Below are positions 8,771-58,855 of a DNA stretch of 64,000 bases, piece by piece; within the stretch, counting starts at the first letter, position 1, and each line of letters opens with the position of its first letter. The position numbers and the translations under genes are program-made. Under the pieces are notes generated by a model, which ran no database searches, had not been told where the DNA came from, and worked only from the letters and a program-made list of their open reading frames with translations. This stretch comes from Chrysophaeum taylorii. Taxonomy: Eukaryota > Sar > Pelagophyceae > Pelagomonadales > Pelagomonadaceae. The stretch is from the NCBI GenBank assembly GCA_029834535.1, contig JAQMWT010000017.1, forward strand, positions 62,001-126,000. Reading direction: 5' to 3'.

Positions 8771-8771
8771 T

Positions 8772-10321
8772 GGACTTCCAAGTGATAAGGGAACCAAACA
8801 GAAAAATAGCATAACCAGTTGTGGATTTGCGATCTTGTTCGTAGGAGGGCGCGTTATCAGCGTCGACGAACGCAACCAGTGGATCAAAATTACCTGAATC
8901 CACTTGTTCTTTAGTATAGTCCAACATGGTTGCCATATCAGTGCGATTGCCGATGATAGATCTAAGATGCTCCATTAGAGCGGAAGAACCAGAGTAGTAC
9001 CATAATCGAAGATTGCGATTTTCTGGTTTGCGCAAGTAACGAAGTACTCCTGTTAATACCTGGACGTGCAGATATTCTGGATTGTGCATTCCACGGGAAC
9101 AGCGACTGAGGCTTTGTGATAGATCAGGTCGACAGGCCAACTGTACAAAGGTGAGCTTGCCAAGTAGAGTGGAAAAGGTATGTAGAATGAACTCGTCCAT
9201 ATCAGAGGATGGCTCTCCAGTTTTATATATAGTTGAAGGAGACATAGGAGTAGATGTTGGACGTAAGTTTGCTAGTATAGGGTACTCTTCAAACAAGGCA
9301 TCAATTTTAGCTTGGCAATCGAGTGAGATAGAACCATCAGTAGTGCGTGTGACTCGCATGCCTAGAAGAGTATGAACTTCTTCAAAGTCTTCAACGGAGT
9401 ACTCTTTCTTTATGGCCTGTTGAAATTCGCGACGTAGGCTTTCCGATGTACAGATGACGACAACATCATCCACTGATAAAGTACAAAGTAAAAACGTGGC
9501 GTCGGATTGGACTTGGGCATAGATGTAAGTATTTGTTCGAAAGCGTCGATATCCTAACGTGTCAAAGAAAGCGTTCATTGTTTGGTTCCAGAGTGCAGGG
9601 CTCTGCTGTACATAAAGAGATTTGAGCAGTTTTGGGAGACGTCGTCCCTGGTACTTTGCATCTTCTGGGTCCAGTAGGTGAGTACCTTGTGGCAATTTAA
9701 CGTAAACACGAGAATCTAGGGGGGCTTGGACAAACGCGTATGCCACGTCTATTGGTATACAGGAAGTCGGAGGTGTGCAGCGAGAGCTAGAACACAACGA
9801 ATACCAGTGAGCTGCGCCATTGGACTGAATGTGTTAAAGAAGTCGGTGCCAAGTGAAGCTAAAAATCCCCTCAGGACCAATCGCGCTTTATGCTTGATGT
9901 ACTCGCCGGCGGCGTTGGTCTTTATACGCAATACCAGCCGGGTATCGATGGGCTTGGAGTTGGCCATGGGCAGCGATAACTTGAAGCAGCCAAATTTAAC
10001 AATATCAAAAATCTCCTTGGAAATTGCGGAGATGTAGGCCTTGCGGTCAGCATCTGAGAGACCTTTTAGGCAGGTCAACTCATAGTCATCAATCTCGATA
10101 TCCTTGGCTTGGATCTTATATTCGTCCGGACCAACGGTGCTGGGATCTTGAGCGTGTGTTAGGTGGATGATCGCGTAAGAATCAGCAATAGCGGTAGTAT
10201 GATCGGGATCGGGAGTTTCGACAAATTGAATGACAAGTAGAGGATCATCTCCAAGGTGTGCATCGATATAATGGGACTGCACGGTGATGTGGTCCTCAAT
10301 GGCGGAGAGGCGGGGTTCTGA
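8772..10321 (-). pseudogene. C1 reverse transcriptase / RNase H (copia type), broken
   Basis: Minus-strand copia RT and RNase H. The first part, 10282-9749, contains KHKARLVLRGFLASLGTDFF and FSPMAQLTGIR. A frameshift near 9770 moves to a frame with AFVQAPLDSRVYVKLPQG, GRRLPKLLKSLY, the catalytic box SVDDVVVI (SVDD where most copia elements have YVDD) and RNase H motifs FVDADNAPS and RKSTTGYAIFLFGS. It stops at LITWKSK where the LINE cluster is inserted, so the RNase H C-terminus is lost. C3 (41.9-44.8 kb) is the nearest relative in the window. Confidence 0.85.
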
Positions 10322-10332
10322 GGCGCCATAAG

Positions 10333-10772
10333 CTGCGATCGCTGATCGCTAACCGTTGGTTGCGATGGAGGACGGCGCCTAACACGCTTGCTCCCTGCGG
10401 CGGCCCCGGCCGTCCCGGTGTGAGACGGTGCCTGCTCGCCTCACGGGCTGGCCGCTTAGCACCCGGAAAGTCCGCGCTGGGATGGGGTTCGCTCGGTTGG
10501 GCAGAACGCGACGGACAGGTCGATTGTTCGTGGACCAACACGTCCGCGGCCTGCGACGCTTTTGCACGACCTCGCACAAGACCGCGCGCAGTGGCGGTCC
10601 ACCATCAACAAGTCCGTCCTCGTCCCTCGCCTCTGCCCCAGCTGCGTGATTTTCCTCTGTGATTCCGTACCGGCTCCTGCCGGTCCGGCCTGGCTCCCAT
10701 GCTCGGGAGAGGTCTGAAGATTTAGTTGGCTCCCATGCTCGGGAGAGGTCTGAAGTTAATTAGTTAGGTAAG
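10333..10772 (+). mobile_element. Short non-autonomous RTE derivative sA-4 with duplicated 3' end
   Basis: Same organisation as the other sA copies. The terminal block (ggctcccatgctcgggag...tctgaag) appears twice, at about 10691-10719 and 10727-10755, separated by atttagt, so the 3' hairpin is doubled. Flanks share ataag, consistent with a short target duplication, inside C1 pol between integrase and RT. Confidence 0.85.
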
Positions 10773-10773
10773 T

Positions 10774-12684
10774 TATAAGAAGCATCGTTATAGTCCATGA
10801 TAGCATGGGGCGTTAGCAAAGCGCAAGCATATTGAGCGGGAGGAACTTGAAAAGCTTGGGCGTGTTCGGATATTAGATGAACGCTTGAGCACGAGGGAGG
10901 TGGGAGTCCGAGAGGCAGGCGTCATCGAGGAGATGAACAGGGGTGGCAGCCAACGGATGGCTAAGGTTACTATGACACATACCAGAAGAATAATGGAATA
11001 GCGCTTGAGGAACATGATGATGAAGAGTTCGTGTAAATTCCCCCTCTGGTGGCATAGCCATCCAGTGGATGCCATTAGCAGCATGAAGGGAGTGGAGGGT
11101 GGGGTCGCAGAAGGTAATGTACTGCTTGGAGAGGTCATACTTGAAGTCAGCAAGCGCACCACCAGCTTGTTTATAAGCGGCAACGGTTGGCGAAGCAATG
11201 CGGGTGAGCACAGCGTTGAGATTGGTATTGCGACGAGGCTGAGGGTGATTAGCACCGCGGGTGAGACGAAGGGCGTCTTGTGAATATAAGGACCGATAGG
11301 ATTGTAAGATGGGTAAATCGTTGGACGGCAACTCAGATGCCGTAGGTGTGGCGACAGAAGCAGCGGGAGCACAGGCTGGGACTGAAGTCGGAGCTGGTGC
11401 TGGAGGTGAGGTATTCCCCCTCTCGTGTTCAGTGTCGTTGGACACAGCATTCCCTCTCTGCAACGCATGGCTGGGGGTGCTTAGAACAGAAACGGGTATC
11501 TCAGGTGAAGGTGCGGGTGGGAGATGTTGTTCGTAAGCGGGAGGAGAGTTAGAGGTTAAATGAGGAAAGGTAAGTTTAGATGAGACACGGACTTGGCCGT
11601 TCTCAGGATCAAGGACAACATCAGCTAAGTGGTTAACATGGGGTGTAACCAGCGGGTTAATGACATTAGCGCCACATAAGTAAATGTAGGGACGACAACG
11701 AGGTTCATACTTGTGAAATTCATTAGATTCCAAATGCAAATAACAAATAGAACCGAAAGGTTTGAGGTAGTCTTGTTGGGGAACATTACATTGGTCCAAC
11801 AAAACTTGTTGTGGACTTACCACTTTATTATAGATGCGCTCGAGAGAGACATTAGGGAGGATATTATACGACTGAACGGCATGTATAACAGCCCACGGAT
11901 AGTGTGGGGCCGGATCTGTTAGGGGGTGACCTTTATAGGACACATTGAGCATATGCCGGAGTCGTGTAGACGCAGCAGTTGCAATATGTCCCACAGCGGC
12001 TTCTACTTCGTGATTGAACACATGCAAGTAGGGAGGGAAAGCAGACATGTTAATGCCATGCTCAACACGAAAGGGAGTAGTAATGTGTTGAGACAAATAG
12101 GGTTTAAAAGAGTCACAGTAGATTTGCTTTAATTGCACATGAACGTAAGTGGAACAAAAGTTACGAACAAACTCGAGGGCATTACAAAATTCGCTAGCGT
12201 TGGTAGTACGACAAAAGTAGACTAACAGAAATTTAGAAATGAGACATTTGAAAACTAAAATGTGTCGAAAAGAACCCCATTCGGAGAGAACAGAGACGTA
12301 GCCACCGTCGCATGCCCAGGCTTCACCGGGTTGAAAGACTTTTTCGAATGAGGGTTGCTTGGTTAGGTGATGTGGATGAGGAAAACGTTTTTTATGTAAT
12401 GTACAATCCACACAAAACTTACGGTAGGGCACATCTGAGGGATGATGACCTGGGCTGGCGATAACCTGAACAGCTTTTATAGCTTGAGAATCGCTAGAAT
12501 GATGGGTATTATGGAAGTTCGTTGCACGTCTTTGGGCATCGCGAAAAGCAAGAGTACCTCTGGCATGTACTTTTCTGTCAAAAGAAGCATGTTTCTCGTG
12601 TAACTGTCTTGGGGTTATGAGAGGAATATGTTTCAGATATGTATTAGGAGTGGATGGTTCATCTAAGGATGAGATGTTAGACAT
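10774..12684 (-). pseudogene. C1 integrase region (copia type), 5'-truncated
   Basis: The frame 12684-10873 carries the zinc-binding HHCC region (NFHNTHHSS ... FCVDCTLHKKRFPH) and the catalytic core: WACDGGYVSVLSEWG (first Asp), YCDSFKPYLSQHIT (second Asp) and HVFNHEVEAAVGHI (Glu). The long Pro/Ala-rich linker leading to RT follows. The sequence ends abruptly at 12684, one base before the LTR of element A1. No C protease or methyltransferase sequence precedes it here. A frameshift near 10870 leads to the RT part. Activity is unlikely. Confidence 0.85.
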
Positions 12685-12685
12685 G

Positions 12686-13000
12686 TGCAGAGAAATCTAC
12701 TGCCTCTTACCCTTATCCGTCCGTTGAGAACGTGATCTCTTCCTTACCTTTCTTCTTCCTTTCTACACAATCAAATAGTCCTCTGATTTGTGCCTACGCT
12801 CATCATCATGGTCTAGCGCGTCCCGGGGTATCTAGCACTATACACTTTACCTTTCTCGTGTAGTTCTAGATGCCGCCTGTCGTGTTCTGAGGATATAGGG
12901 AACATACCTTTTCAGTCCCCGAATTAAATACTTCCAGACGTTCACGATGAGACGGGATGGTTTCCCAGGTGACTTACCACTGCTTGCCAACTGCTCTGCA
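12686..13000 (+). repeat. A-family 5' LTR (A1)
   Basis: The 315-bp LTR starts TGCAGAG and ends CTCTGCA, a perfect 7-bp terminal inversion. The first bases also form a hairpin, GCAGA-GAAA-TCTAC (TCTGC in the other copies). Other copies: 28642-28956 (-), 41400-41712 (+), 54853-55541 (+, interrupted) and the related B LTR at 30986-31298 (-). The 3' boundary is fixed by the following primer-binding site and by the B 3' LTR, which diverges from A sequence exactly after TGCA. Confidence 0.85.
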
Positions 13001-13137: not shown

Positions 13138-13434
13138 TGTATATAATACTTTTTTGAACACGTGATCGTGTAACCTTGTGTGCACCTGTTCATAGCATCG
13201 TATTGTCATGTCAATGTTGATGTGTGTGTAATTGGCTAACCTGTACTCTTGCACACATGTTATGGAATATTTTGGGTACGTCCACTCGTACATTCCATGG
13301 CAATGCACTTAACAAGCTCCTTGAGAGCACCAAAACTAACCAGCTGCCTGAGTCACTACGCTTAGCGACACTACTCTGGACTCACAGCTTGCACAGTCGT
13401 CAAATAGACACCTTCCATCGAAAACGATGAGTGT
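13138..13434 (+). repeat. 297-bp direct repeat, left copy
   Basis: Starts tgtatataatac and ends gatgagtgt. It is nearly identical to 13523-13819, with a few single-base differences (gaacacg/gcacacg, gtcacta/gtgacta, tagaca/tatac). The same sequence occurs only once in the A3 leader (about 55678-55976). It belongs to the non-coding leader between PBS and gag and contains TATATAA. An 88-bp LINE 3' end separates the two copies. Confidence 0.9.
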
Positions 13435-13522
13435 GTGATTTTTGCTCTGTGATCCTGGACCGGCTACTGCCGGCCCAGCCTGGCTCCCATGCCCGGGAGA
13501 GGTCCGAAGTTAGTTAGTTAGT
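13435..13522 (+). mobile_element. 5'-truncated LINE 3' end (88 bp)
   Basis: Matches the LINE 3' end from GTGATTTTTGCTCTGTGATC through both hairpins to the TTAG tail (gaagttagttagttag). It contains the last 14 or so bases of ORF-end sequence and the 3' UTR only. It lies exactly between the two 297-bp repeats. Confidence 0.9.
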
Positions 13523-13819
13523 TGTATATAATACTTTTTTGCACACGTGATCGTGTAACCTTGTGTGCACCTGTTCATAGCATCGTATTGTCATGTCAAT
13601 GTTGATGTGTGTGTAATTGGCTAACCTGTACTCTTGCACACATGTTATGGAATATTTTGGGTACGTCCACTCGTACATTCCATGGCAATGCACTTAACAA
13701 GCTCCTTGAGAGCACCAAAACTAACCAGCTGCCTGAGTGACTACGCTTAGCGACACTACTCTGGACTCACAGCTTGCACAGTCGTCAAATATACACCTTC
13801 CATCGAAAACGATGAGTGT
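13523..13819 (+). repeat. 297-bp direct repeat, right copy
   Basis: Second copy of the leader segment at 13138-13434, continuing without a break into the gag leader (acatagacaccgatagac), as in A3 and A2. The uninterrupted single-copy arrangement in A3 and A2 shows the pre-insertion state. Confidence 0.9.
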
Positions 13820-13905
13820 ACATAGACACCGATAGACAGACCCCCTTAGAATGTCTAGACAGTGTCAACTGCGTGACTGAACCCACAGGTTCCCCGTCAA
13901 CTGCT

Positions 13906-16832
13906 ATGGCAGAACACGCAGCACGAGCCGCACCCAAGGCGATCACAGGTGCGGATATATTGAAGCTCGAAGCTCCTGTAGTTGAGTTTCTCAACGACGG
14001 AAATCGATTTCAGCTTCAGAATCGCAAGGTATCCTTGCAAATCAAACACATTAAGCAATTATTACGGTCCAGTCATGCCGATGCTTTCCTCGAGTACGAC
14101 TCGTACGAAGCATATACTCGGTCATGCAAGGACTACGAGATCCTCCGGAATCAAATTCTCGATCGCGTTTTCCTGGAATGGAAGACCGATAGGGCTGCTG
14201 ATCTCCGTTTAGCTGTTGATGAATTGCCCCCTGAGTATCAGGAATGGCATTTCACCAACGAAGCTTTCCCCCACTTACCTGATGCAGAAGTAGCTCAGCT
14301 AACTACTGTCTGTTACGACTATGAAGTCAAGGCATTACGTCCTGAAATCAATGCTCGTTTCTTAGAAGAGGAACGAATCTTAAATCGCGCGCACCCGAAG
14401 GCACTAGCTTTCGACACCCGTGTTCGTGCCCCTGTTACCATGTTTTCGTTAACTGCAGCTGACTGGCACACTTACCAGAACACGTACGCTACATTCTTGC
14501 ATACTTACTTCAATCTTGAAAGTGTTGGAAAACCGGCACTTGCGGCCTGGCCCGCCATCAATGAGGTATACAACAAAAGTTATTTACCCAACAAGGCTCG
14601 AGCTATTATGCTCATCGCCTTTAGTCACTACGAGTCTGTTACGACTACTGATGTGTCCTATTTGAAACAGCAATTTAACTCTGTTGTTTATAATCCTAAC
14701 TGGTATGTCCATGTATTTATCGAAGCTGTCCTAGCATTTAGGCAAATCTCTTACCAACTTAACCAGGAAGAGACTGACCTTCAATTCGACTTTGGCACTC
14801 TTTGTGGAAAATCTATGAAGAGATACATCGGCATTATGCCGATAATACCAGCAACAACCGTTACGATCGTGGTTGGGTAGATTGGTGTTATATGTACGAA
14901 ACCCGATCTTCATCTCGACCTGTGCCAGAAGCTGAACGATTGTGTCACCCCACCAACCCTAGCTACATTTTAGAATACGCATTAGACCTTTACAATGTAG
15001 TATCAAATGGATCGAACAAAAGACGCTTAGAACCCCCTGTTTCTTGGCAGCCCTATGTCGAAGGTTTATCATCTCGACCAAAGCCAAAGTTGCTACTTAC
15101 AAACACTTTGGACTCATCAGACAAAAGTCTGACTCAAACTGCTAACACACTCGCCTTCATCACTTCGTCCCAACCTGGTACATCTTCCACGTTTAATGCT
15201 AGACGCTTGCGTAACACTAATGATGCTCGCCAGCCTTTCTCTCGCAGCGATTTATCGTACTATCGTCCTGGTGATTCTTACGTCACCAAGAAAACTGCCG
15301 GACAGTCCCATGACCGTCCAATTTACCCCCGCACTTTTGACAGGTCCTCTCGGTCTAACATGAAATTATTAGATCGAACAAACCACACCTTAAACGCCCT
15401 GCGAGAACAGTGTGGTGAACTTGCAAAACATGTGACAACGAAGAAAACTGCCGGACAGTCCCATGACCGTCCAATTTACCCCCGCACTTTTGACAGGTCC
15501 TCTCGGTCTAACATGAAATTATTAGATCGAACAAACCACACCTTAAACGCCCTGCGAGAACAGTGTGGTGAACTTACGAAACATGTGACAGATAATGATA
15601 CCACGACTCAGCTACAACATAATATCAACAAGTTATTTGAGACTCTATTACAATCAGCTGACATTCTGTCAACGACATCTACTGAGGACAACAGTAGTTT
15701 ACTTCGTCTAAACGAACAGCTCATGTTTGCAGAAGACATCATTTATGATGTAGACGTTCATCTATCCTCGACCGAAAAGTCGTTAAACTACGTGGAGCCA
15801 CAACACCATACTGTCGTTACTGCTCCCACCCCAACAACAACTCCTCCTACTACAAACACACAGGGTAATCCTTCCAATACTGTGTCTAACCTCTTTACCG
15901 CTTCCGCCATCTCGGCTTTACCACCAGCATTATTGTCCTCGCTATCTTCACAGGTCCAATCTGCCCTCAACACACCATCACAAACCGAACCCAAAAGGGA
16001 TGCCGATCATACTTCGCTATCGTCATTTGATGAAAAGCACGGCATGGCTGATGAGGCTGACGAACCATCACCACCTGTTCAACCGATCATTATTCCAACG
16101 AATCTGTTATTGCTGAAGAACTTCTTTACAGCCAGCCTCTCCACTACTTGCCCACATTCGGAAAACGCCTTCCTCACCAACTACATGAAGGTAAACAGTG
16201 TCCCTCCACATTGCTCTTTTCTATATTTTGACTCTTGTGCTACCATCTCATTGATGTCCACCTACGATTTCGCAATACCCAATCATATAATTCCATTGGA
16301 CTCCAAATACGCGCCGATTGTTATTCAGACGGCTACAGGACAACAACGGGCATCACACATGATGTTAACACGCAACATCGTTATTCCCCTACCAGATCAT
16401 CCACAAGTTGGCTATGTTAAGATCGACTTCGCTTTATGTCTTCAGCCAGTGCATGACCGACATCTCGCTATCCTGAGCATGCTCGAGTGGAACCAGACGA
16501 ACCTGACCACTGTGTTCAATGATCGAGCTGAGCCAAAGCTCAGCGCTGTCACGAGCCGCATAGACAAAGATGTACGTATACCCATACACTATGTAGCAGC
16601 TAATTTACCTGCTCTCCCTTGTCTCACTTACAACATCGCGCGCGACAAGCGGCTGGAACTTCGCTCTCTCGCATTTCCCCTCAAGCGATACCATGAAAAC
16701 AGGGATCTACTGGCATACTACAACTACCTACTCCAAAGAGTTTTACCAGATCGCCCGTGGATTCGCCCTTTGGTTCTCAATCTTCGGAAACAGAACAAGT
16801 TTGTTCAGCAAAACACGCAGCCATTAACCTGA
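13906..16832 (+). pseudogene. A1 gag-protease, one frameshift
   Basis: Gag starts at ATG 13906 (MAEHAARAAPK), shared with A3 and A2; an upstream frame opens at a GTG. Gag is mostly helical (FLEYDSYEAYTRS, DWHTYQNTYATFLH, YLPNKARAIMLIAFSHYES) and has no CCHC knuckle. A one-base deletion near 14806-14812 relative to A3 breaks the frame; the rest runs 14802-16832. The protease is C-terminal: LYFDSCATISLM at about 16221-16256, with the catalytic Asp at 16230-16232, then IVIQTATGQQRASHMM and HLAILSMLEWN. DSCA replaces the usual DSGA/DTGA. The frame ends PLT-TGA and is followed in frame by the methyltransferase module. A putative cleavage motif SLNY lies at 15770-15791. Confidence 0.85.
15288..15593 (+). 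repeat. 153-bp in-frame tandem duplication in A1 gag
   Basis: Units 15288-15440 and 15441-15593 each encode 51 residues beginning KKTAGQSHDRPIYPR and ending GEL(A/T)KHVT. A3 has this segment once (about 57,443-57,595). The units are almost identical, so the duplication is recent. Confidence 0.9.
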
Positions 16833-16835
16833 CTA
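16830..16835 (+). promoter_or_regulatory. Candidate stop-codon readthrough site TGA CTA (A1)
   Basis: The gag-protease frame stops at TGA (16830-16832) and the same frame is open for 718 further codons. The next codon is CTA. UGA CUA is an established leaky context, for example before the alphavirus polymerase. The stop and context are identical in A3 (58850-58855) and B (39964-39959, minus). Confidence 0.65.
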
Positions 16836-18989
16836 CTCTCACGCCAAGTGTTTCTCTCACAAGAGTCCAATCTCCGCAAACCCTCTGTCATGTTACTTTG
16901 GTCTGGTTTGTCAACTCCGGCGTTCCTGTCTCAAGCCACTAATGACTTAGGCTTAAATATCAATGTAAAAGTTGTTGTTGAGTCTGATGATACGCTTGTT
17001 CGTATGTTACGCCACCGTTTTCCTACTGTATTGTTATTTGAGTCTCTCCCCGCCTTTATTAACCACCTCCACCTAATCTCACCAGAGGAAAGGCGCACAT
17101 TCTATTGTGATATAATTGAGATCACTCCTCCCTGCACAAACAGGAATTTACTAAAACAGCATAAGACGGAAGACTTACACAGCCTGCTGGACGACTCTCT
17201 TTTCGACAGCATGTTGTCTGTCATCAAGCTACTCCAGCCCTTGGTACTACTGGCTGAGATGACGCCTCCGCATAAATACTGTCATCAAGACCACATCACA
17301 GTGGCCAACCTTATCCATACTACACTTGATTACTGTGTCGATGTTGTTGATAGGCTCCCGACCTACCTCTGTGGCGACTACCAATCTAGAGAAAGATGGA
17401 TATGCATCGCACGCAGATATTCTACTGGACCAATTAAACTATTATCGTGGCCCATCCTCCATCCACGCCCCTTCCTAAAGATCGTGGATGATCTACAAGC
17501 TATTCCCAAGCGCCTTTGGCTACCTAACCACGTATCCAAAGACTGGATCCGGGTGTTCCCCGATCCTCCATATATATCCGTTCCTAAAACGTTTGCACCT
17601 TACTCTCGCACAGGTTCTGCTCAGCTTACTATGGCTGACCTTGAATCCCTCAATATGTTACTGCTTCGCCTTCACTCACAACAGGCTCACGAACAACGTA
17701 CTCACTCTGTTCAATCCGAGTGTACTTATCATCAGTTGTGCTTTAAACGCTCCTCTATGGAGCCATTACCCAATGCAACACATCCTATACACGTCAAGGT
17801 TTTTACAATCCTCTATAACTTGTTTGCCAGCTTACACACTAACTCACCCACTCCTGTGTCCTATTACATAACCGTTTTCGAAACTAACCAACCGTCACAC
17901 AGGTTATTACTTACAACCTCATCAACATCACACAACTCCTACTTCTTAACTGGTGGCCACCATTCCGACGGCAACCTCACCATAGAGAACGCCACCACCA
18001 ACCAACAAACCCCCATCAACGCCTTTGGAAGCACGTATACGTTCACTGCTTCCGACATCCCCCGCGACCGGGACAGGTCCATATATTTGGAGCCGTTTAT
18101 GGGTTACTTGTGGATAGTCCAAGCCCTTCCCCAAGTTGGCTCCGCTGCCACCTATGGCACCGCCATACAAAAGCTCTTGTCCAGATGCTCTCTTGTGATG
18201 CCTGGCTGCCTTACCTACAAGGCCACCGACAACTCTTTCGATTACAAGGATTCTCTTTTTGCTCTGGAAGATCACCACTTATCTCATAGTCGCTATATAG
18301 GGTACCTTCGTGGAAGTGACCGCAAACTCGGCTCTAAAATCCACTCAATGCTTGCTCCATTGCCAACCGTCCGAGGGTATGCCAATATTATTTTACTCGA
18401 CCCTCGCAACGGGAAATTACGCTACCCCACTCGACCGGAGTTGATTCGTGCTAACAACCACACCAAACAACAGGAATCCTTCCTCTTGTCTCTACGCCAT
18501 GACCTTTGCTGTGACATGCTCAGCAATGCTCTGCCTGCCGGTACGTACAGCACTCTGTACAAGCACCTTTCGCTCCTCGTTGCCGATATTAAATCCCTTA
18601 TGTTGGACCCTACCTTCCAACATACTGCTGCCGTGACGAAGAAATCCTATGTATCCAATTTCATGACCATTAATCAAGCTTCCACCACGTGCAGCACAGA
18701 TACCTTGTCTTTAGCACAAGCTTTTATGATGTCTATTTCCAGCAACTGCTTGACCGAAATGTCGTTAAACTATATATCTTCGTCCTACGAAGATACTCTC
18801 GTTACTCGTGATGATGAGGATGCACCTCCAAGTGACCCTGCTGTGCACCAGGATGACGACGCACCGCCTTCCCCTGCCTTAGACACCGAACTCAAGTTCG
18901 ATGTTCGGCGCAAACGGCACATTCCCGCTCATCCCATTCCTCGTAAGTCACTTGCACACGGATCCACCGAACATCTCAATGCCAAATAA
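16833..18989 (+). CDS. DNA cytosine-C5 methyltransferase-like module of A1 pol
   Basis: Numbering from the first ATG, 16848. Motif I-like LLWSGLSTPAF (16-26); motif II VVVESDD (42-48); motif IV ITPPCTNRN with the catalytic Cys at 96; motif VI LVLLAEMTP with Glu 137 in the ENV position; motif VIII QSRERWICIARR (179-190). A 320-residue variable segment could be the target-recognition domain. Then LAPLPTV (502-508), motif IX-like GKLRYPTRPELIRAN (522-536) and motif X-like MLSNALPAGTYSTLYKHL (557-574). Motif order is exactly that of C5 methyltransferases. Expected role: methylating cytosine in DNA, perhaps element cDNA or target chromatin (inference). It is probably made by readthrough of the TGA at 16830 and released at SLNY (18752-18773). 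The TAA at 18987 is a point change; A' and B have GAA there. No disabling change is seen. Confidence 0.75.
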   Translation, partial: LLSRQVFLSQESNLRKPSVMLLWSGLSTPAFLSQATNDLGLNINVKVVVESDDTLVRMLRHRFPTVLLFESLPAFINHLHLISPEERRTFYCDIIEITPPCTNRNLLKQHKTEDLHSLLDDSLFDSMLSVIKLLQPLVLLAEMTPPHKYCHQDHITVANLIHTTLDYCVDVVDRLPTYLCGDYQSRERWICIARRYSTGPIKLLSWPILHPRPFLKIVDDLQAIPKRLWLPNHVSKDWIRVFPDPPYISVPKTFAPYSRTGSAQLTMADLESLNMLLLRLHSQQAHEQRTHSVQSECTYHQLCFKRSSMEPLPNATHPIHVKVFTILYNLFASLHTNSPTPVSYYITVFETNQPSHRLLLTTSSTSHNSYFLTGGHHSDGNLTIENATTNQQTPINAFGSTYTFTASDIPRDRDRSIYLEPFMGYLWIVQALPQVGSAATYGTAIQKLLSRCSLVMPGCLTYKATDNSFDYKDSLFALEDHHLSHSRYIGYLRGSDRKLGSKIHSMLAPLPTVRGYANIILLDPRNGKLRYPTRPELIRANNHTKQQESFLLSLRHDLCCDMLSNALPAGTYSTLYKHLSLLVADIKSLMLDPTFQHTAAVTKKSYVSNFMTINQASTTCSTDTLSLAQAFMMSISSNCLTEMSLNYISSSYEDTLVTRDDEDAPPSDPAVHQDDDAPPSPALDTELKFDVRRKRHIPAHPIPRKSLAHGSTEHLNAK
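18752..18773 (+). other. SLNY putative protease cleavage site, methyltransferase/integrase border
   Basis: The 22-bp motif encodes T-E-M-S-L-N-Y and lies between the last methyltransferase-like block and the acidic stretch before integrase. Almost the same DNA and peptide occur at other module borders of A and B elements (see findings). Resemblance to retroviral S-x-N-Y sites suggests processing by the element's protease; this is inference. Confidence 0.5.
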
Positions 18990-20543
18990 CGTGCCAATCG
19001 CCTTCACCGGGTGCATCACTGCCCCGACAACGTCGCTGCCAAGGCCCCCAACGTACTTGCTCGCCCTGGATTCTCTGCTTCTGGCATACCATATCGCGAC
19101 TTATGCACCGACTGCATCGCACACGACAAGCGCCACCCGCACAAGCATTTCAATGCGACCAAGCCTTATTTTGAGCAAACTCACAAAGCCGGCGAAATCT
19201 GGGCGTGCGACGGCGGTTATGTGACCATCCCATCAGAATGGGGGGGGCTTCACACATATCATCGTCTTCAAGGAACTCATTTCGAAATTTCTCTTGGTAT
19301 ACTTTACACGCACCACCAACGCCACGGAGTTCACTCAAGCTCTGGATTTTGTGTATGACTTCTGTCGTACACAACTCAACGTGCACATGCGCACCCTCTA
19401 CTCCGATGCATTCAAGCCCTACTTCAGCCAACACATTACCTCCCCGTACCGCGTCGATAAGGGCATTCAACTCATTGCCTTCCCGCCGTGCATGCATCAC
19501 TTTAACGTTGAAGTTGAGTCTGCCATCGGTTTCATCGCCCCCGCCTCCTCAACTCGCCTTCGTTCTCTCCTTAATGCTCACTATCGTGGCGCCAAGATCG
19601 TAGAGCCCGCTATCATGCTCCCATGGGCGGTGATACACACCGTTCAAAGCTATAACCTTCTCCCGAACGCCACGCTCGAGCGCATTCATCATGCTATTCT
19701 GAGTCCGCAACAGCTACTCTACAACCAATTCAGCACTCCCCAACACGATATGCTCAAGATTTTTGGCGCTGAATGTTACCTCCTATTGGAGCCCCATGAA
19801 CACCACAAGTGGGAACCGTGCCGCCGCAAATATCTGTATCTCTGTTGCGCCAACGCGCACCCCCCCCCCTTCTCCCCACGCGTCGACCATCTCGCTGACG
19901 TCGTCCTCAACCCTGAAAACGGACAAATTCGTGTTTCGTCCAAGCTGCAATTCCTCTACATGTTGCAGCATCCTACTCCTGATCCTGAACTAGCTCCTCC
20001 GCCTCACGCTCCTGCCGCGCCTTTCTGGCTCACACCCCACACCACTATCCAAGACCATGTCATTCAGAGGGGGACAAGGACTCCTCATCCTCAGAGGGGG
20101 CACTGCGTTGTTGGCTCGTCTTCTTCTCCCGTTGCGCACTGACTTACTTGCCCGCTACCCGCACGTCGATGGTTACTTCGCCCACGCCAAGTGCGCATCC
20201 AGCATCCTAGCTGCAACCTTTTAACTGCGGATGGTTCACCTACGTGCCCTATTCCTCAGCCCCTTTTATCTGCGTTCACTGAACACGCTGCTGCCTTCGG
20301 CACTTCTTCCTTACAATATGCACTTACGTACCTGGCGCCGACCAGCTTTATTGATCACAACTCATCCGAGTTTGGCGCTACATCTGCATCTCTGGCTGAC
20401 TTGGAGGAATACCTTCTGGTCTCTACAGAGTTTATCACCCAGGTCTTACGTACCGACCCTACTATCCATATCCAACTGGAATCTGCCCCTACTACTCCTA
20501 CTGACGCTGTTTCCGCTTATCCCGAAGTTGCGCACACTGCCTC
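18990..20543 (+). pseudogene. A1 integrase (copia type), frameshifted
   Basis: The zinc region HRVHHCPDN...DLCTDCIAHDKRHPH and catalytic-core motifs WACDGGYVTIPSEWG, YSDAFKPYFSQHIT and HHFNVEVESAIGFI give the D, D and E. The second Asp sits in SDAF rather than the usual SDNG, and the Glu is in EVES. Frames are 18990 to about 19260 and 19294-20142, with a run of seven G at about 19240-19246 and a stretch of C at 19860-19868 as likely slippage sites. A deletion near 20100 removes part of the linker seen in A'. The SLNY motif at 20544-20565 marks the border to RT. Confidence 0.85.
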
Positions 20544-22366
20544 GACCGCAACGTCGCTAAACTATAATTCACCAGCCATTGTTGGTCCTGACGAATATAA
20601 GGTCCAAGAAGCGGACGTTTCCATTGACGAATATAAACTTAAGTGCCTCCACGGTTTGTCGCCTGAAAACAGGCACGCCTACCTCAAGGCCATCGCCAAG
20701 GAACTCCACGACATTATCCGCTTTGGCTGCTTCAAACTTTCCTTACCCGACGGTGTCTCTCGTCCTATTGACAGCAAGATGGTGCTGAAGATTAAAACCG
20801 ACTCTGCAGGCAAATACGTTAAGCACAAGGCTCGCCTGGTACTACGTGGCTTCCTAGCATCTCTTGGCGCCGATTTCTTTGGTACCTTCAGCCCCATGGC
20901 CACCATGACCGCAATCCGGGTACTACTAGCTATTGCAGCATACAAGCAATTGCCTGTCTACCATGCAGACGTCCCGATCGACCCCGATGACGCTAAGTAC
21001 AAGGGCCGACGTCTACCGAAACTGCTGAAGTCACTTTATGGACTTCGGCAATCACCATCTCTTTGGAACAAATAGATAGTCGGCTTCTTCCGTAGCCTTG
21101 GTTACAAGCGCCTGCATTCGGACTCTGGCCTATATGCTCGAGTATCCGCACATGCTAAGTTCGTCGTGTGCAGTCTGTCTGTAGACGACATTGTTATTGT
21201 GTCCAATGACGACCCTCTTCGTACAGAATTACAGGATGCCCACCACAAACGGTATGCTGTAGAGCAGTTTGAACTTGTCCATACCCTCCTAGGCATGCGT
21301 GTGTGTCGCTCATCTGACGGCTCCATTTCTCTGGATGTGCCAGCCAAGCTGGATGAACTCTTCGCTGATCACCCTAGTCTTGCAGCAACTGACCCCGCTT
21401 AAATATCCTATGTCATCGTCCTTCAAATATAAAGATGGCTCTCCCAGCTCCGAAACAGAGTTGTACATCAATTCGCACTTTGCCACCCTCCTTGGCAAGC
21501 TGGTGTTCATGCAAGTTGCCTGCAGACCTGACTTCTCGCAAGCCTTGGGCAGATGTTCGCGTGGAATGCATGCACCCACGTATGCTCACGTCCAAATGCT
21601 AGAGCATTTGCTTCGCTACCTCAAGAAGCCGGAAAACCGCTCACTTCGCCTTTGGTTCCATCCTAAAGGTAATGCCATTGAAGCTCACCTTCGCACTGTC
21701 TCCGCTAATCGAATTGATCTCTCCACTGTGGTCGACTACCAACCGCAGGATGTATCTACTGGACAGTTTGACCCCTTAGTTGCCATGGTTGACGCTGACA
21801 TTGCCCCTTCCTTAGCACAGGATGATAGGAAATCTACCACCGGGTTTGTCTTCTATCTTTACAACTGCCTTATTGGTTGGAAAAGCCAACTTCAACCGAT
21901 TGTCTCCTGCTCAACTCACGAAGCTGAGTTGATTGTCCTCAGTATCTGTGCTGATGCTGTTTGGCTACGCAAGCTGCTGTTGGAACTCTCCTTTGTCGTC
22001 AACCCCACCTTCTACGTCAACAATGCTGATGGTGAGAACACCGCTGACCCTGTCGACTTCGATGACAATGACAACCCAATTGCTGAAGATATGCGCTTCA
22101 TCAGAAGCCTACCTCTCTTGTCTGACAATGCTGCCGCTGTTCACACCTCTAATAACCCAGATGGGTCCTCTCGATCCAAGGCACTGTCGACCAGATGGTT
22201 TAAAATCCGCGAGTACATCTCGCTACAGAAAATACGAGTCCATCATGTTCCCGGCAAGCTGAACGTGGCGGATGGTTTTACAAAGCCACTTGCTGCTGAG
22301 TTCTCCACTTTTCGTTCTCTACTCGGCATGCATCATGCCTCTCACGACAATCCTTTACAGGATTGA
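20544..22366 (+). pseudogene. A1 reverse transcriptase / RNase H, broken
   Basis: RT: KHKARLVLRGFLASLGADFF, FSPMATMTAIR, LPKLLKSLYGLRQSPSLWNK and SVDDIVIV (catalytic pair at 21184-21189). Relative to A' there is an in-frame loss of 22 residues near 20975 (NAFVQSDIDANV and following), a stop right after LWNK (21073), and a frameshift near 21400. RNase H (to 22366): MVDADIAPS, RKSTTGFVFYLYN, CSTHEAEL, and C-terminal VPGKLNVADGFTKPL. Non-functional as it stands. Confidence 0.9.
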
Positions 22367-23693: not shown

Positions 23694-25062
23694 TAACTAA
23701 CTAACTAACTTCGGACCTCTCCCGGGCATGGGAGCCAGGCTGGGCCGGCAGTAGCCGGTCCAGGATCACAGAGCAAAAATCACACAGTTGGGGTAGAGGC
23801 GAGGGATGAAAGTGCGTGGATGGCGGACCGCCACTGCGCGCGGTCTTGTGCGAGGTCGTGCCACGAGTTGAAGGGGATGTCGCATTTCCGGTGTGCCTTG
23901 GCGAGCGACGTCCCGTACGTCATCTGCGGAGCCCCCGGTGGGCGCTTGGAGCGGACCCAAGACGAGAGCATCTTGCGAGGGAGTCGGGAGAAGGGCATGC
24001 GGGCGACGTGACCGGCCCAGCGGAGCTGGCGGCGCGTGACGCAGACGTCGATGGACTCGAGGCCGAGGCGCCGCAGCAGGATCTCCGTTGAGATGTGGTG
24101 GAACCAGGTGTGTTTCCGGGTCACACGACACATGACGCGGGCGCACTGCGCGTGGAAACACCGCAGCCGGCGGAACAGGACCTCGGTGAGGCACCACGAT
24201 TCCGCACCGTGAAGGAGGATGGCCAGGACGAGCGAGACATAGACGAGGCGCTTGGCGCGAGCAGAGACGGACTTCGAGGCGAAGATGCAGTCCCGCAAGG
24301 CACCGAAGGCCTGAGACGCCTTCTTGATCCGCGCGTCGACGTCTGAGTCGTCGCGGCAGTCGCGCGAGAGGACCGAGCCGAGGTACTTAAACTGGTCGAC
24401 GACCGGTATGAAGCGGCCGCGCCCGAGCTCGATGTCCGAGAGGTTCGTGTCGTCGAACGACTTTGGGTCGCCGTACAGTTGTGCCGGGCGAGCGACGAGC
24501 AGCATCTCCGTTTTGGACGCCGCTTTCGTGTGTCGGTTGCCGCAATGCACCTCCATGCCCCAGGCGTCGCAGTGTTCGATGAGGCGCGGTGTCTCGCTGG
24601 CGGCGATGTGGCGGTCCCAGAAGAGAAAGGCAACGTCGTCGGCGTACGCCGATTCATCGAAGGGAAACTCGTCGCCGCGAGTGGACCAACCCCGGTTCGT
24701 CATCTGAAAGTCTTTCCGCGTACGGTAGACACACGGGGCGCGGCCATGGCGTCGTCGAAACGACGTCGTCAGTGCCGCCATGAACAGCACGAACAGGACG
24801 GGGCCCAGGACGTCGCCCTGCTTGACGCCGATGATGGAGTCAACCGAGGCGACGACACCGCTGACCGAGAAGTGGACCTGGATTCGGTGGAGGCCCTTGA
24901 TGACTTCGACGAGCTTCGGCGGGGCGCCGAACTTCAGGAGCACCTCCCAGAGAAGCTCTCGCGGGACGCGGTCGAACGCCTTAACGAAATCGATGAACAG
25001 TACCCACGAGTCCTGACCGTGCTCACGCCGCTTCTTCAGCGCTAGCTTGAGCGAGAAGAACT
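23694..25062 (-). mobile_element. 5'-truncated RTE-like LINE (RT C-terminal half)
   Basis: Minus-oriented copy of the LINE at 5317, beginning inside RT (FSLKLALKKRREHG), with FIDFVKAFDRVPRELLW, YADD and LRWAGHVARM, then the 3' UTR and a ctaactaactaac tail. The frame is open from about 25,060 to the stop at 23780 but has no endonuclease or RT N-terminus, so it cannot act alone. The flanks share GAAGCA, a short target duplication, in C2 gag. Confidence 0.9.
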
Positions 25063-25344
25063 GGTGCTTCATCATTATTTAATTGCTTTGCCTGAGATTG
25101 AAAGGAAAGGAGTTGTTCGACGAATACATGGGCATACCAATTATTATTTAGAGACATTCGATTAAACTGAGATTTAAACTCAGTTACATCTGTACAAGAC
25201 ACTGTCTCATAGTAATGATAGGCTAAAAGCATTACAGCACGTAATTTATTGGGATGGATGTGCGGGGATTGCATAAATTTCCTTTAGTTGAGGCCACATA
25301 GCGAGAGCGGGCTTTTCCTCGGACTCCAGGTTAAAAAATGTACA

Positions 25345-37883: not shown

Positions 37884-37905
37884 GTAGTTTAACGACTTTT
37901 CGGTC

Positions 37906-39961
37906 CAGCTGCAGTTGGAAATGTGACTCATGAATGCAGCCGCCTGGAAGATAGTGTCTGAGCTGTGACTGGAAAGAAGCAGTTCACAGGTGAGGAAGGT
38001 AGATACGCTAGTCTTCTTCTAGGTAGCACTGTCATGTTGAAAGGAAGGGTTCAACATAAGCGACTTCATATCGGCGACCACGCGACAGATGTGGGTGTAA
38101 AGGATGTGATAAGTGCCCGCAGGTAGAGCATTGCTGAGTAGGTCGCAGCATAAATCTTTCTTCAATGAAAGTAAGAAGGACGTCTGGAGGCGAGTGTGGT
38201 TGTTGGCTTTGATAAGTTCGGCTCGCGTGGGGTAGCGGAGTTTGCCGTTACGAGGGTCCAACAAGATGATGTTGGCATATCCTCGGATAGTTGGCAATGG
38301 AGCCGACATAGAGTGAATTTTGGATCCGAGCTTGCGGTCGCTGCCGCGTAAGTAGCCAATATACCTGCTATGAGACGGATGGTAATCTTCCAATGAAAAA
38401 TATATGTCCTTGAAAGTGAATTGGTCGGAGGATGGGTTGTATGAGAGACAGTCAGGCATAACAAGAGAGCACTGTTGGAGTAAGTTGCGGATAGCAGGGA
38501 CAGTGTTGTGGGCTGCGTTGACAAGGGGGTAGGCTTGCACTAGCCATAGGTATCCCTGAAACGAGTCGAGATGGAGCTTCTTATCGGCGGGATTGTCGCT
38601 GGCGGTTAGGGTGTAAGTAGATCCATATGCGTCAATGGAAGCCTGATATTTGCTTGCTTTGTTCTCAACTAGTAAGTTGCCATCAGTGTGGTGTCCACCG
38701 GTAGGAGTGTGGATATTGAAGGTAGATGAGGAAGTTGTAAGAAATAGCCTAGGGGCGGGCTGGTTAGTTTCGAAAATCGCAACATAGTAAGATACAGGTG
38801 TAACGTTGTTCGGCGAGATTCTGGCGAACAAATGGTATAGAGTGATAAATGCCTTGAGGCGGAGAGGATTTGATGATCCGAGTAGTGGTTGATTATAGGA
38901 CCTATTGAACCCAAGGTGATGATAGGAACACTCCGAGTGCGTTTTATGTGTATGTTGTTAGAAAGCTTGCTGTGAATGAAGCCGGAGGAAGAGTAGGTTG
39001 AGGATCTCAAGCTCATAGAAGCTCAACCGAACGGGGCCAGTACGAGAGTACAGGGGAAACGTCTTGAGGGAGTGAACCAGTTGTGGATCTGGGTAAGTGC
39101 GAACCCAGCCTTGAGACAGAGTCTTGGAGAGCCAGAGGGTTTTAGGCACGGAGTTAACGTCATCTGCTATGTCAAAGAAGCGCTTCGGGTGCTGGTTCGG
39201 CCAGGACAGGATGTCCATGGGTCCAGTGTTGTACCTGCGAGCAATGCAGATCCATCGTCCCCGAGATTGGTAATCGCCGCACAGATTGGTAGGGAAGCGG
39301 TCGACTACATCAACGGTGTAGTCAAGTGTAGCGTGAATGAGGTTAGCTACGGATATGTGATCCCTGTGAATACACTTGTGAGGGGGTGTCATCTCCGCAA
39401 GTAGGACTAAGGGTTTGAGTAGTCTGATGACGGAGAGCATACTGTAAAAGAGGGCGTCATCGAGCAAACTGGCCAAGTCGGATGTTTTGGTGCTCTTGAG
39501 GAGATTTCGGTTGGTACAAGGGGGAGTCACAAAGTTTGATCAACGATTACAAGTTTGGTCACACAGCCTCCAAGTTTGACCATACACACGCATCAACATG
39601 CGAATACTCGCAGAACAACATCCACAAACAAGGCCTGCGTAAGACAGCGCTGATACCACGCTGTTGTGATTTCTATCACATCACAGTAAAAATACCGTCT
39701 TTCATCCTCCGTTATAGACGGCAGGTGATTGAGGAAGGAGGGTAGAGATTCGAAAATAATAATCTTTGGAAAGTGTTTGCGTAACATGCGTACAAGCGTT
39801 TCGTCGGACTCAACAGCAATCTTAACGTTGATGTTTAAGCCCAAGTCATTGGTGGCCTGTGACAGAAACGCAGGTGTTGACAATCCAGAGCATAGTAACG
39901 TGACAGTTGGTTCGCGAGAGCCATCGTTGGTAGTTGATAGGAATGCTGGACGAGTGCGTAG
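37906..39961 (-). pseudogene. B methyltransferase-like module, interrupted by a 138-bp insertion
   Basis: In frame after the TGA at 39964-39962: CSGLSTPAFLSQATND (motif I), IAVESDETL (II), FYCDVIEIT, then the insertion (39665-39528), then PPCTNRN (IV), LVLLAEMTP (VI) and YQSRGRWICIARR (VIII, QxRxR with the second Arg changed to Gly-Arg). The second part has SHSRYIGYLRGSDRK, APLPTIRG, GKLRYPTRAELIKAN (IX) and LLSNALPAGTYHILYTH (X). A frameshift near 38,940 separates 39530-38958 from 38831-38019. Motif conservation between A and B supports selection on the enzyme before this copy decayed. Confidence 0.75.
39528..39665 (-). mobile_element. 138-bp insertion inside the B methyltransferase motif IV
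   Basis: Sequence absent from A1 and A3 splits the codons just before PPC. On the plus strand it starts with three degenerate aagtttg[a/g][t/c]ca repeats. On the minus strand its other end reads GTGGTATCAGCGCTG and TCTTACGCAGG, faintly tRNA-like. No clear target duplication beyond gt is seen. It may be a small SINE-like or other mobile sequence. Confidence 0.5.
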
Positions 39962-39964
39962 TCA
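39959..39964 (-). promoter_or_regulatory. Candidate stop-codon readthrough site TGA CTA (B)
   Basis: The minus frame reads PPLT-TGA-CTA-CGC and continues as L-R-T-R-P-A-F-L-S into the methyltransferase-like module. The position, stop codon and following CTA are the same as in A1 and A3 although the neighbouring codons differ. Confidence 0.65.
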
Positions 39965-41399: not shown

Positions 41400-41712
41400 T
41401 GCAGAGAAATCTGCTGCCTCTTACCCTTATCCGTCCGTTGAGAACGTGATTTCTTCCTTACCCTTCTTCTTCCTTTCTACACACTCGAATAGTCCTCTGA
41501 TTTGTGCCTACGCTCATCATCATGGTCTAGCGCGTCCCGAGGTATGTAGCACCATACACTTAACCTTTCTCGTGTAGTTCTAGATGCCGCCTGTCGTGTT
41601 CTGAGGATATAGGGAACATAACCTTTCATTCCCCGACTTAACCTTCCAGACGTTCACGATGAGACGGGATGGTTTCCCAGGTGACTTACCACTGCTTGCT
41701 AAATGCTCAGCA
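41400..41712 (+). repeat. A-family 5' LTR with PBS and partial leader
   Basis: TGCAGAGAAATC to CTCAGCA, PBS 41713-41726, leader to about 41855. There, at TGTATATAATATT, it is fused to C-family integrase sequence. It was inserted into B gag; the rest of its own element is missing. In sequence it is closer to the A LTR than to the B LTR. Confidence 0.85.
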
Positions 41713-41859
41713 GGTTATGGGCCCAGGCGGGTCCCTGAGAAACCATGTGTCAACATGCACGTAACCTATGGGTATTGGACTGTTACCGCGCCAGTTCAGC
41801 CTCGCCATGTGACACGCTTGTCAATATATCGCCATTACCATTGGGCTGTATATAATATT

Positions 41860-53672: not shown

Positions 53673-53694
53673 ATAGTTTAACGACATTTCGGTC

Positions 53695-54852
53695 AAGCAG
53701 TTGCTGGAAATAGACATCATAAAAGATTGTGCCAAAGACAAGGTATCTGTGCTGCACGTGGTGGAAGCTTGGTCAACGGTCATGAAATTGGATACATAGG
53801 ATTTCTTCGTCACGGCAGCAGTATGTTGGAAGGTAGGGTCCAACATAAGGGATTTAATATCGGCAACGAGGAGCGAAAGGTGCTTGTACAGAGTGCTGTA
53901 CGTACCGGCAGGCAGAGCATTGCTGAGCATGTCACAGCAAAGGTCATGGCGTAGAGACAAGAGGAAAGATTCCTGTTGTTTGGTGTGGTTGTTAGCACGA
54001 ATCAACTCCGGTCGAGTGGGGTAGCGTAATTTCCCGTTGCGAGGGTCGAGTAAAATAATGTTGGCATACCCTCGGACGGTGGGCAATGGAGCAAGCATGG
54101 AGTGGATTTTAGAGCCGAGTTTGCGGTCACTTCCACGAAGGTACCCTATATAGCGACTATGAGATAAGTGGTGATCTTCCAGCGCAAAATGAGAATCCTT
54201 GTAGTCGAAAGAGTTGTCGGTGGCCTTGTAGGTAAGGCAGCCAGGCATCACAAGAGAGCATCTGGACAAGAGCTTTTGTATGGCGGTGCCATAGGTGGCA
54301 GCGGAGCCAACTTGAGGGAGGGCTTGGACTATCCACAAGTAACCCATAAACGGCTCCAAATATATGGACCTGTCCCGGTCGCGGGGGATGTCGGAAGCAG
54401 TGAACGTATACGTGCTTCCAAAAGCGTCAATGGAAGCATGATATTTGGTGGTGGCGTTCTCTATGGTGAGGTTGCCGTCAGAATGGTGGCCACCAGTTAA
54501 GAAGTGGGAGTTGTGTGATGTTGATGAGGTTGTAAGTAGTAACCTGTGTGACGGTTGGTTAGTTTCGAAAACGGTTATGTAATAAGACACAGGAGTGGGT
54601 GAGTTAGTGTGTAAGCTGGCAAACAAGTTATAGAGGATTGTAAAAACCTTGACGTGTATAGGGTAGGTTGCATTGGGTAGCGGCTCCATAGAGGAGCGTT
54701 TAAAGCACAGCTGATGATAAGTACACTCGGATTGAACAGAGTGAGTACGTTGCTCGTGAGCCTGTTGTGAGTGAAGGCGAAGCAGTAACATATTGAGGGA
54801 TTCAAGGTCAGCCATAGTAAGCTGAGCATAGCTTGTGCGAGAGTAAGGTGCA
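53695..54852 (-). pseudogene. A' methyltransferase-like module, C-terminal part only
   Basis: Starts abruptly at APYSRTSYAQLTMADLES (A1 residue 250) next to the plus-strand LTR at 54853 and continues through SHSRYIGYLRGSDRK, APLPTVRG, GKLRYPTRPELIRAN (IX) and MLSNALPAGTYSTLYKHL (X). Motifs I-VIII are absent here but are found in opposite orientation at 58853-59617, ending at the same residue. Confidence 0.8.
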
Positions 54853-55541: not shown

Positions 55542-56060
55542 GGTTATGGCCCAGGCGGGTCCCTGAGAAACCATGTGTTAAAACGTGCACGTAACCTATG
55601 GGTATTGGGCTGTTACCGCGCCGGCCCAGCCTCGCCACGTAAACACGCTTGTGAATATTACGCCATTACCATTGGGCTGTATATAACACATTTTGCACAC
55701 GTGATCGTGTAACCTTGTGTGCACCTGTTCATAGTATCGTATTGTCATGTCAATGTTGATGTGTGTGTAATTGGCTAACCTGTACTCTTGCACACATGTT
55801 ATGGAATATTTTGGGTACGTCCACTCGTACATTCCATGGCAATGCACTTAACAAGCTCCTTGAGAGCACCAAAACTAACCAGCTGCCTGAGTGACTACGC
55901 TTAGCGACACTACTCTGGACTCACAGCTTGCACAGTCGTCAAATAGACATCTTTCCATCGAAAACGATGAGTGTACATAGACACCGATAGACAGACCCCC
56001 TTAGAATGTCTAGACAGTGTCAACTGCGTGACTGAACCCACAGGTTCCCCGTCAACTGCT

Positions 56061-58852: not shown

Positions 58853-58855
58853 CTA
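58850..58855 (+). promoter_or_regulatory. Candidate stop-codon readthrough site TGA CTA (A3)
   Basis: Same position, frame and context as in A1: PLT-TGA-CTA-CTT, open into the methyltransferase-like module. Confidence 0.65.

Follow-up and report, generated by a model that had tools for sequence, protein, structure and literature searches.

Introduction

DNA methyltransferases (DNMTs) are known from several classes of retrotransposon, having been described in long interspersed nuclear elements (LINEs) and DIRS elements of the dinoflagellate Symbiodinium and in a Gypsy element of the charophyte Klebsormidium (PMC5890265), in a paper that also cites two older reports of DNMTs linked to reverse transcriptase (RT). 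Transposons are usually the targets of cytosine methylation, and elements with an enzyme of their own invert the question. Here, we detail a family of Ty1/copia retrotransposons in the pelagophyte Chrysophaeum taylorii, centered on element A1 in a 64,000-nucleotide stretch of contig JAQMWT010000017.1 (assembly GCA_029834535.1, positions 62,001 to 126,000 of the forward strand; hereafter the window). Element A1 carries, ahead of its integrase and RT, a 647-codon module that is very probably a cytosine-C5 methyltransferase. The best overall explanation, to which we assign a probability of roughly 0.6, is that these are copia elements whose C5 methyltransferase is maintained by selection, reached through bypass of a TGA stop codon and directed at the element's own complementary DNA (cDNA). 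Related copies are grouped below into subfamilies A (to which A1 belongs), B and D, and a separate C lineage.

The initial annotation of this DNA had pointed to dinoflagellate and charophyte precedents, which are real but belong to LINE, DIRS and Gypsy elements (PMC5890265). A further paper mentions "LTR Copia and DIRS" elements with DNMT3 (PMC12344493) and cites PMC5890265 for them; since the cited source speaks of Gypsy, we take the Copia wording as a slip, yet it stands as a prior mention. No such element is reported in the accessible portions of PMC9998398 and PMC3145265, and searches of the openly licensed literature listed no earlier description of a copia form with a C5 methyltransferase. 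The novelty is thus a DNMT in copia, retrotransposon DNMTs being already known in LINE, DIRS and Gypsy elements.

The C5 Methyltransferase-Like Module

The identity of the A1 module is judged from sequence comparison. Motifs I, II, IV, VI, VIII, IX and X of C5 methyltransferases are present in order, and every block quoted in the initial annotation is found in the sequence given there:

Residue 24 of the A1 module: motif I block SGLS
Residue 49: motif II block VESDD
Residue 98: motif IV block TPPCTNRN, with TPPCTN at 17124..17141 (+); the catalytic-type Cys is residue 101, kept in 31/31 copies
Residue 139, 17247..17270 (+): motif VI block LLAEMTPP, its Glu aligned with the ENV of the C lineage
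Residue 184, 17382..17399 (+): motif VIII block QSRERW (QxRxR)
18426..18542 (+): motif IX PTRPELIRAN (residue 532) to motif X LSNALPAG (residue 563)

Between QSRERW and PTRPELIRAN lie 342 residues in A1, against the roughly 320 given in the initial annotation. Motifs IX and X are colinear with the C lineage in a profile alignment, and subfamily D has RHYSTRELARANN and IANAIPAG.

A chain of homology leads from A1 to PF00145, the Pfam family of these enzymes. In a five-sequence comparison run with composition correction off, A1 is 42% identical over 355 residues to the algal transcript protein P0002 (expect value, E, 5e-81), and P0002 is in turn 25% identical over 327 residues to the C-lineage protein P0004 (E 3e-8). 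P0002 matches PF00145 at E 4.4e-4 (20.2 bits, a little below the cut-off of 22 bits) and the C-lineage protein P0003 does so at E 1.1e-9, the C module reading TLPCQH and ENV, while P0004 matches the dcm model TIGR00675 at E 2.9e-8 (33.7 bits, under the cut-off of that model). Moreover, a profile of A and a profile of C align colinearly, with E 2.8e-5 and a probability of 74; the alignment spans 482 columns and takes in motifs I to X. The homologue search with P0001 returned P0002 as its single protein at E 0.001 (8000 candidates scored); the searches with P0003 and with the 1691-residue open frame of the copy L039 returned none, and viral contigs searched with P0003 gave no match.

Several results weigh against this identification. 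On its own, A1 gives no match of any kind in Pfam or NCBIfam and none to a methyltransferase in PDB sequences, and the A profile finds no methyltransferase for it in the same collections. The long frames L039 and L060 lack a PF00145 match at E 0.1, the D module L061 reaches E 0.08 only, and PF00145 is seen at E up to 1 in only 2 of the 14 members of the A alignment. The C profile fails to recover A1 (E 22); searched against PDB sequences, it gave no match at E 1. Motif VI reads EMT rather than ENV, and motif IV reads PPCTN (SPCTN in D) rather than PPCQ. As for structure, the full-length AlphaFold model of the A1 module failed, with a predicted local distance difference test score (pLDDT) of 33, and was kept out of the fold search. 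A model of the lobe spanning motifs I to VIII is Rossmann-like and of middling quality, but it matches DNMT1 and EhMeth only about as well as it does many unrelated Rossmann proteins. No C5 methyltransferase is among the 50 matches listed by Foldseek, VIA-align placed its listed C5 methyltransferases no higher than unrelated rows, and the structure matches were mostly dehydrogenases and reductases. The structure thus agrees with a C5 methyltransferase and does not decide for one. Among the checks that the initial annotation had put forward, the PF00145 search gave matches for P0002 and the C lineage and not for A1 directly, and the AlphaFold model yielded a Rossmann-like lobe that is not C5-specific.

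Conservation and Selection

Conservation was scored on copies at least 75% identical, a set from which matches below that level (B among them) are excluded and in which one copy is counted twice (L015 is L039). All 31 aligned copies keep the motif IV Cys, the motif VI Glu, the three fixed residues (Q, R and R) of QxRxR and the Asn of motif X; 30 of 31 keep the motif IV Pro, and 28 of 30 have the Gly of motif I. The Cys, Glu and QxRxR recur in B (as QSRGR), in D (with SPC for PPC) and in P0002. Mean identity over the 49 motif columns is 98.2%, against 93.1% for other columns, and 63% of motif columns are fully invariant, against 45% elsewhere.

Comparison of A1 with B gave proportions of nonsynonymous and synonymous differences (pN/pS) of 0.17/0.82 for motifs I to VIII, 0.30/0.74 for the variable segment and 0.16/0.70 for motifs IX and X. 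Gag-protease gave 0.30/0.82, and the SH3, RT and RT/RNase H pieces gave 0.12-0.18/0.75-0.87; with synonymous sites close to saturation in this comparison, the values demonstrate constraint and not exact ratios. Among closer copies, the median ratio of nonsynonymous to synonymous substitution rates (dN/dS) is 0.21 (435 pairs of 30 copies), or 0.15 where dS exceeds 0.2. The module is under purifying selection similar in strength to that on the integrase and RT pieces. The initial annotation had held the motifs to be constrained and had pointed to dN/dS between A and B copies as a check, and both the column identities and the A1-to-B differences agree with it. A DNMT that lies inside the coding region and is under purifying selection, the mark of DNMT-bearing retrotransposons (de Mendoza 2018), is what is found here.

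Layout of Element A1

In A1, the module is located between a gag/protease-like open reading frame (ORF) and the integrase-RT part of a Ty1/copia element with a recognizable 5' long terminal repeat (LTR):

12686..13000 (+): 5' LTR of A1, 315 bp, TGCAGAG...CTCTGCA
13816..14880 (+): gag-like ORF, 5' piece; frame change in A1 at this point
14802..16829 (+): gag/protease-like ORF with FDSCATIS motif
16830..16832 (+): in-frame TGA directly 5' of the module, then CTA; TGA in 42/43 distinct alignable junctions
16833..18773 (+): very probable C5 cytosine methyltransferase module of A1, motifs I-X; open frame, 647 codons
18774..20142 (+): integrase and SH3-like region of A1; frame changes; SH3_retrovirus match in 19294-20142
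20191..22366 (+): RT and RT/RNase H region of A1; RVT_2 in 20191-21075; frame changes

The LTR ends were taken from another copy (L041, L042 and L045), and the outer boundary is common to window position 41400, window position 28956 and L042; no 3' LTR of A1 was found. RVT_2-type RT matches were obtained for A1 (E 1.1e-17), for L039 (E 7.7e-42) and for the C element L040 (E 1.6e-38). RVT_2, an integrase upstream of the RT, and LTRs with a 5-bp target duplication together place these elements in Ty1/copia. The target duplication is CTCAC at both flanks of a C element (5 bp) and GATAA/GATAG (4 of 5 bases matching) around an A element on contig C42. The integrase domain rve precedes RVT_2 in both L039 and L040, at E 0.008 and 0.006, under the cut-off.

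Neither gag/protease-like piece of A1 (13816..14880 and 14802..16829) has a Pfam match. The FDSCATIS of the upstream ORF is presumably an aspartic-protease-like motif, although no profile matches it. The usual active-site motif of aspartic proteases is D[ST]G; by eye, the protease-like active sites are odd in both lineages, with DSCAT in A (window 14802-16829) and DGGAS in C (L040 3097-3500). The gag-like ORF of A1 also holds a 153-bp tandem duplication (window 15285-15590), and 297 bp of the leader and gag start (13138-13819) are present twice, 385 bp apart.

The placement of a methyltransferase-like module at 16833-18773, between protease and integrase, is thus supported by homology, motif conservation, selection and domain order. 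Its description as lying inside a copia polyprotein needs one correction: the upstream frame ends in the TGA at 16830-16832, so that the A1 module does not share one uninterrupted frame with the protease-like part. From the arrangement of the frames, the module is predicted to be the N-terminal unit of the Pol half in these Ty1/copia elements.

A Conserved TGA Before the Module

The junction was surveyed in 46 distinct copies of subfamilies A, B and D (47 sources, L015 and L039 being one). TGA stands immediately 5' of the module in 42 of the 43 distinct copies with an alignable junction, four of these calls (L016, L026, L030 and L035) resting on one alignment alone; TAA and TAG never occur. 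L010 is without the TGA, L036 is disrupted at the junction, and L033 and L037 did not show it. The codon that follows the TGA (n = 42) is CTA in 20 copies, CGC in 12, ATG in 6, ATA in 2, and CCA and CTG in one each. The stop is kept between subfamilies that are only 46% identical and whose surroundings differ (PLT*LLS as against PPV*RKV, the asterisk marking the stop), and the single conserved in-frame stop before pol that defines stop-separated gag-pol elements is found in A, B and D alike. The 1691-residue frame of L039, which begins right after the TGA, contains module, rve, SH3 and RVT_2, and the gag/protease part of this copy has stops of its own.

Such recurrence across divergent subfamilies makes it probable that methylase-pol is reached by stop bypass, and on these sequences we consider bypass of some kind to be quite likely. 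Among human genes, high readthrough goes with the consensus UGA CUA (PMC4359377); readthrough is highest at UGA among the three stops and is promoted by a following C (PMC12233894). The C element L040 is organized otherwise, with protease-like region, module, integrase and RT in one 1952-residue frame and gag in another. As no stop precedes its module, the A/B/D and C lineages appear to control Pol differently.

Copies and Lineages

Other copies of the module in the window are incomplete or broken:

37884..39961 (-): element B, whose module is broken by stops and additional bases; immediately preceded by TGA-CTA at 39962-39964
53673..54851 (-): element A2, with module residues 255-647 (its C-terminal part) at 96% identity
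58853..59615 (+): element A3, with module residues 1-255 (its N-terminal part), the frame changing twice; TGA at 58850-58852

B and subfamily D are 46-47% identical to the A1 module; in B, about 134 extra bases separate its two N-terminal module pieces, and there are stops too. B and A3 do carry the same motif blocks as A1, as had been noted, as far as each reaches (A3 ends at residue 255). Outside the window, the copy L039 lies on another contig (flanks L041, L042 and L045) with its LTR outer ends 11.85 kb apart and a target duplication in which 4 of 5 bases agree, and L040 has PF00145, rve and RVT_2 in that order in a single frame.

Searches of the organism's own genome (70.8 Mb in 697 contigs) gave at least 72 matches for P0001 (from 68 scored of 1614 candidates), at least 105 for P0002 (from 105 scored of 1056) and at least 79 for the C-lineage protein P0003 (from 68 scored of 830); every one of these counts is a minimum, and some matches are common to the P0001 and P0002 lists. 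When 156 of the 177 P0001 and P0002 matches were paired with the best 150 RVT_2 places, 44 of the latter had, on their own strand, a listed module no more than 9 kb upstream; for 40 of these the distance was 3891-5115 bases. Among the matches listed, three opposite-strand pairs lay within 8 kb and one RT lay upstream of a module. Since both lists hold best matches, 44 of 150 gives no share of copia elements without the module.

Two host DNMT-like genes, L001 and L002, match PF00145 at E 4e-19 and 8e-18. As sources of the module they were rejected, having no detectable closeness to it. The PF00145 domain of L002 spans about 380 residues of a long frame, and in L001 a chlorophyll a/b-binding gene adjoins the DNMT gene, which makes an algal genome probable.

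Some rearrangements were also seen. A2 (49177-54852, -) and A3 (54853-59615, +) look like a single A element split in two, with its halves inverted in order: A2 begins at A1 coordinate 17594, A3 stops at 17597, and the LTR start of A3 adjoins A2. The pair is perhaps a product of self-integration or inversion. Remnants of subfamily D (integrase-RT) occupy 8454-12684 (-) and 41861-44784 (+); the A1 LTR starts at 12686, right at the cut end of the former, and an A-type LTR and leader at 41400-41860 gives way to D-type sequence at 41861, a join that resembles the outcome of template switching.

Proposed Function and Alternatives

How might a copia element use such an enzyme? In the scheme that we favor, most ribosomes would stop at the TGA and yield Gag-protease, while occasional bypass would yield methylase-integrase-RT. 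The methylase would be carried into the particle together with Pol. There, much as the initial annotation had suggested for element cDNA or daughter copies, it would methylate the element's own cDNA at cytosines, no later than integration, such that new copies would land pre-marked and be quietly tolerated. Catalytic competence of the module is likely, judging from the residues retained, and the element's own cDNA as its main substrate is a more tentative proposition, at a little short of even odds. A bolder form of the proposal, which we hold to be doubtful, is that the methylase is an ancient and integral part of copia Pol, acquired once before the split of A/B/D from C and kept since, dosed by UGA in A/B/D, made only with integrase and RT, and acting in the particle on the element's own nucleic acid (non-CpG cytosines or RNA) as a replication step.

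Lasting CpG methylation of element DNA would be expected to leave CpG decay, and a decay footprint, sought in CpG ratios and in transitions between close copies, was not found; this counts against the favored scheme. The observed/expected ratio of CpG is 0.80-0.96 in A and B pieces (lowest, at 0.80, in the A1 module), 1.0-1.07 in C, 0.96 in the window and 1.26 and 1.46 at two host loci. Over 97 pairs of copies less than 4% apart, which are not independent of one another, transitions at CG (774/15558, 0.050) are in no excess over those at CT (1209/23732, 0.051), with CC (829/20903, 0.040) and CA (844/26887, 0.031) somewhat below CG. Accordingly, the target may be non-CpG, the mark may be brief or on RNA, or the enzyme may be idle. 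In yeast, CG methylation was obtained with the DNMTs of DIRS-type Symbiodinium elements (PMC5890265). Enzymes of the LINE and Gypsy types gave no detectable methylation there, a result that is a further point against and that the authors of that study called inconclusive (PMC5890265).

With respect to the stop codon, the competing explanation is that the TGA is passed by termination and reinitiation, or that Pol has a separate message, rather than by readthrough. The 6/42 junctions with TGA-ATG and 2/42 with TGA-ATA suit it, TGA-ATG fitting reinitiation equally well; four copies showed no stable RNA structure 3' of the TGA (z 0.2 to 0.7), and sequence flanking the gag-UGA-pol junction of Tca2 of Candida gave no readthrough in yeast (PMC2194720). 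These eight junctions and the missing RNA structure detract from readthrough. However, in 34 of 42 junctions the TGA is followed by C (by CTA in 20), so that no ATG comes right after the stop, and the stop is TGA only; we consider reinitiation or a separate message unlikely.

For the module itself, atypical motifs IV and VI and the missing 5-methylcytosine decay footprint would suit a catalytically dead or structural methyltransferase, binding DNA only in the manner of DNMT3L and serving Pol as a targeting or packaging domain. Loss of the catalytic-type Cys, Glu and QxRxR would be expected of a dead enzyme, and their presence in 31/31 copies and in B, D and P0002 renders this rather improbable. 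DNMT2 is a C5 methyltransferase fold able to act on transfer RNA (tRNA), and an enzyme acting likewise on packaged element RNA or primer tRNA would leave no decay footprint in DNA; particles do hold RNA. The roughly 340 residues between motifs VIII and IX and the QxRxR look more DNA-type from general knowledge, and we give an RNA substrate a low probability. Equally low is that of an enzyme that mainly alters the host, stray Pol methylating host chromatin or blocking silencing to the element's indirect benefit. High copy numbers in the organism's own genome speak for it, as does the host methylome effect suggested for the Symbiodinium elements (PMC5890265), while a position behind the TGA with integrase and RT suggests a low-level, particle-bound enzyme. 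That the module is no methyltransferase at all but a generic Rossmann domain with short motifs by chance would explain why A1 has no direct Pfam match and why dehydrogenases and reductases dominate the structure matches; already disfavored by the homology chain to PF00145, the ordered motifs I to X and the invariant catalytic-type residues, it is very improbable.

Within one 70.8-Mb genome, an enzyme of this kind is thus present in two or more copia lineages that split deeply, under selection about as strong as that on the RT. It offers a compact and testable case: the candidate catalytic Cys is clear, natural variants are numerous, and bypass of the stop codon would determine the dose.

Other Repeats in the Window

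A 364-bp repeat occurs five times in the window:

33965-34332 (-), 40550-40917 (+), 48813-49177 (-), 54926-55289 (+) and 63182-63545 (+): 364-bp short retroposon copies

It was considered as the element's LTR and rejected: its (ACTA)n tail, flanking duplications (by eye at three copies) and positions inside elements mark it as a separate short retroposon. The five copies are 98-99.7% identical, and the genome holds at least 42 matches at 97-100% (from 40 scored of 1767 candidates); the retroposon is young. Non-LTR type (RVT_1) RT ORFs at 5401-8685 (+) and 23780-25075 (-) have 1365 bp in common at 97% identity, inverted.

Comparison with Known Systems

Dcm-type C5 methyltransferases (PF00145, TIGR00675) share the ordered motifs I, II, IV, VI, VIII, IX and X with the present module. 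They are stand-alone enzymes with PPCQ and ENV, whereas A, B and D have PPCTN or SPCTN with EMT, and the C lineage keeps PCQ and ENV. With regard to the stop codon, a close parallel is Tca2 of Candida albicans, itself of Ty1/copia type. Tca2 has a UGA between gag and pol (PMC2194720), but its stop follows gag, where here it follows gag and the protease-like region, and its abstract mentions no methyltransferase.

The Symbiodinium elements SymbioDIRS-Dnmt3 and SymbioLINE-Dnmt are likewise retrotransposon DNMTs present in many copies in an algal genome (PMC5890265), but they belong to the DIRS and LINE classes, and Symbiodinium Copia elements are without a DNMT according to the same source. SymbioLINEs are CpG-depleted (PMC5890265), a footprint for which no counterpart was found in the present copia elements. 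A similar arrangement is that of KnitGypsy-Dnmt3 of Klebsormidium nitens (PMC5890265), where a C5 methyltransferase also sits in the Pol of an LTR retrotransposon, in many copies and under purifying selection. That element is of Gypsy type with a DNMT3-family enzyme; those of C. taylorii are Ty1/copia, with a more divergent enzyme in which some 340 residues separate motif VIII from motif IX, and with a conserved TGA before the module in A, B and D.

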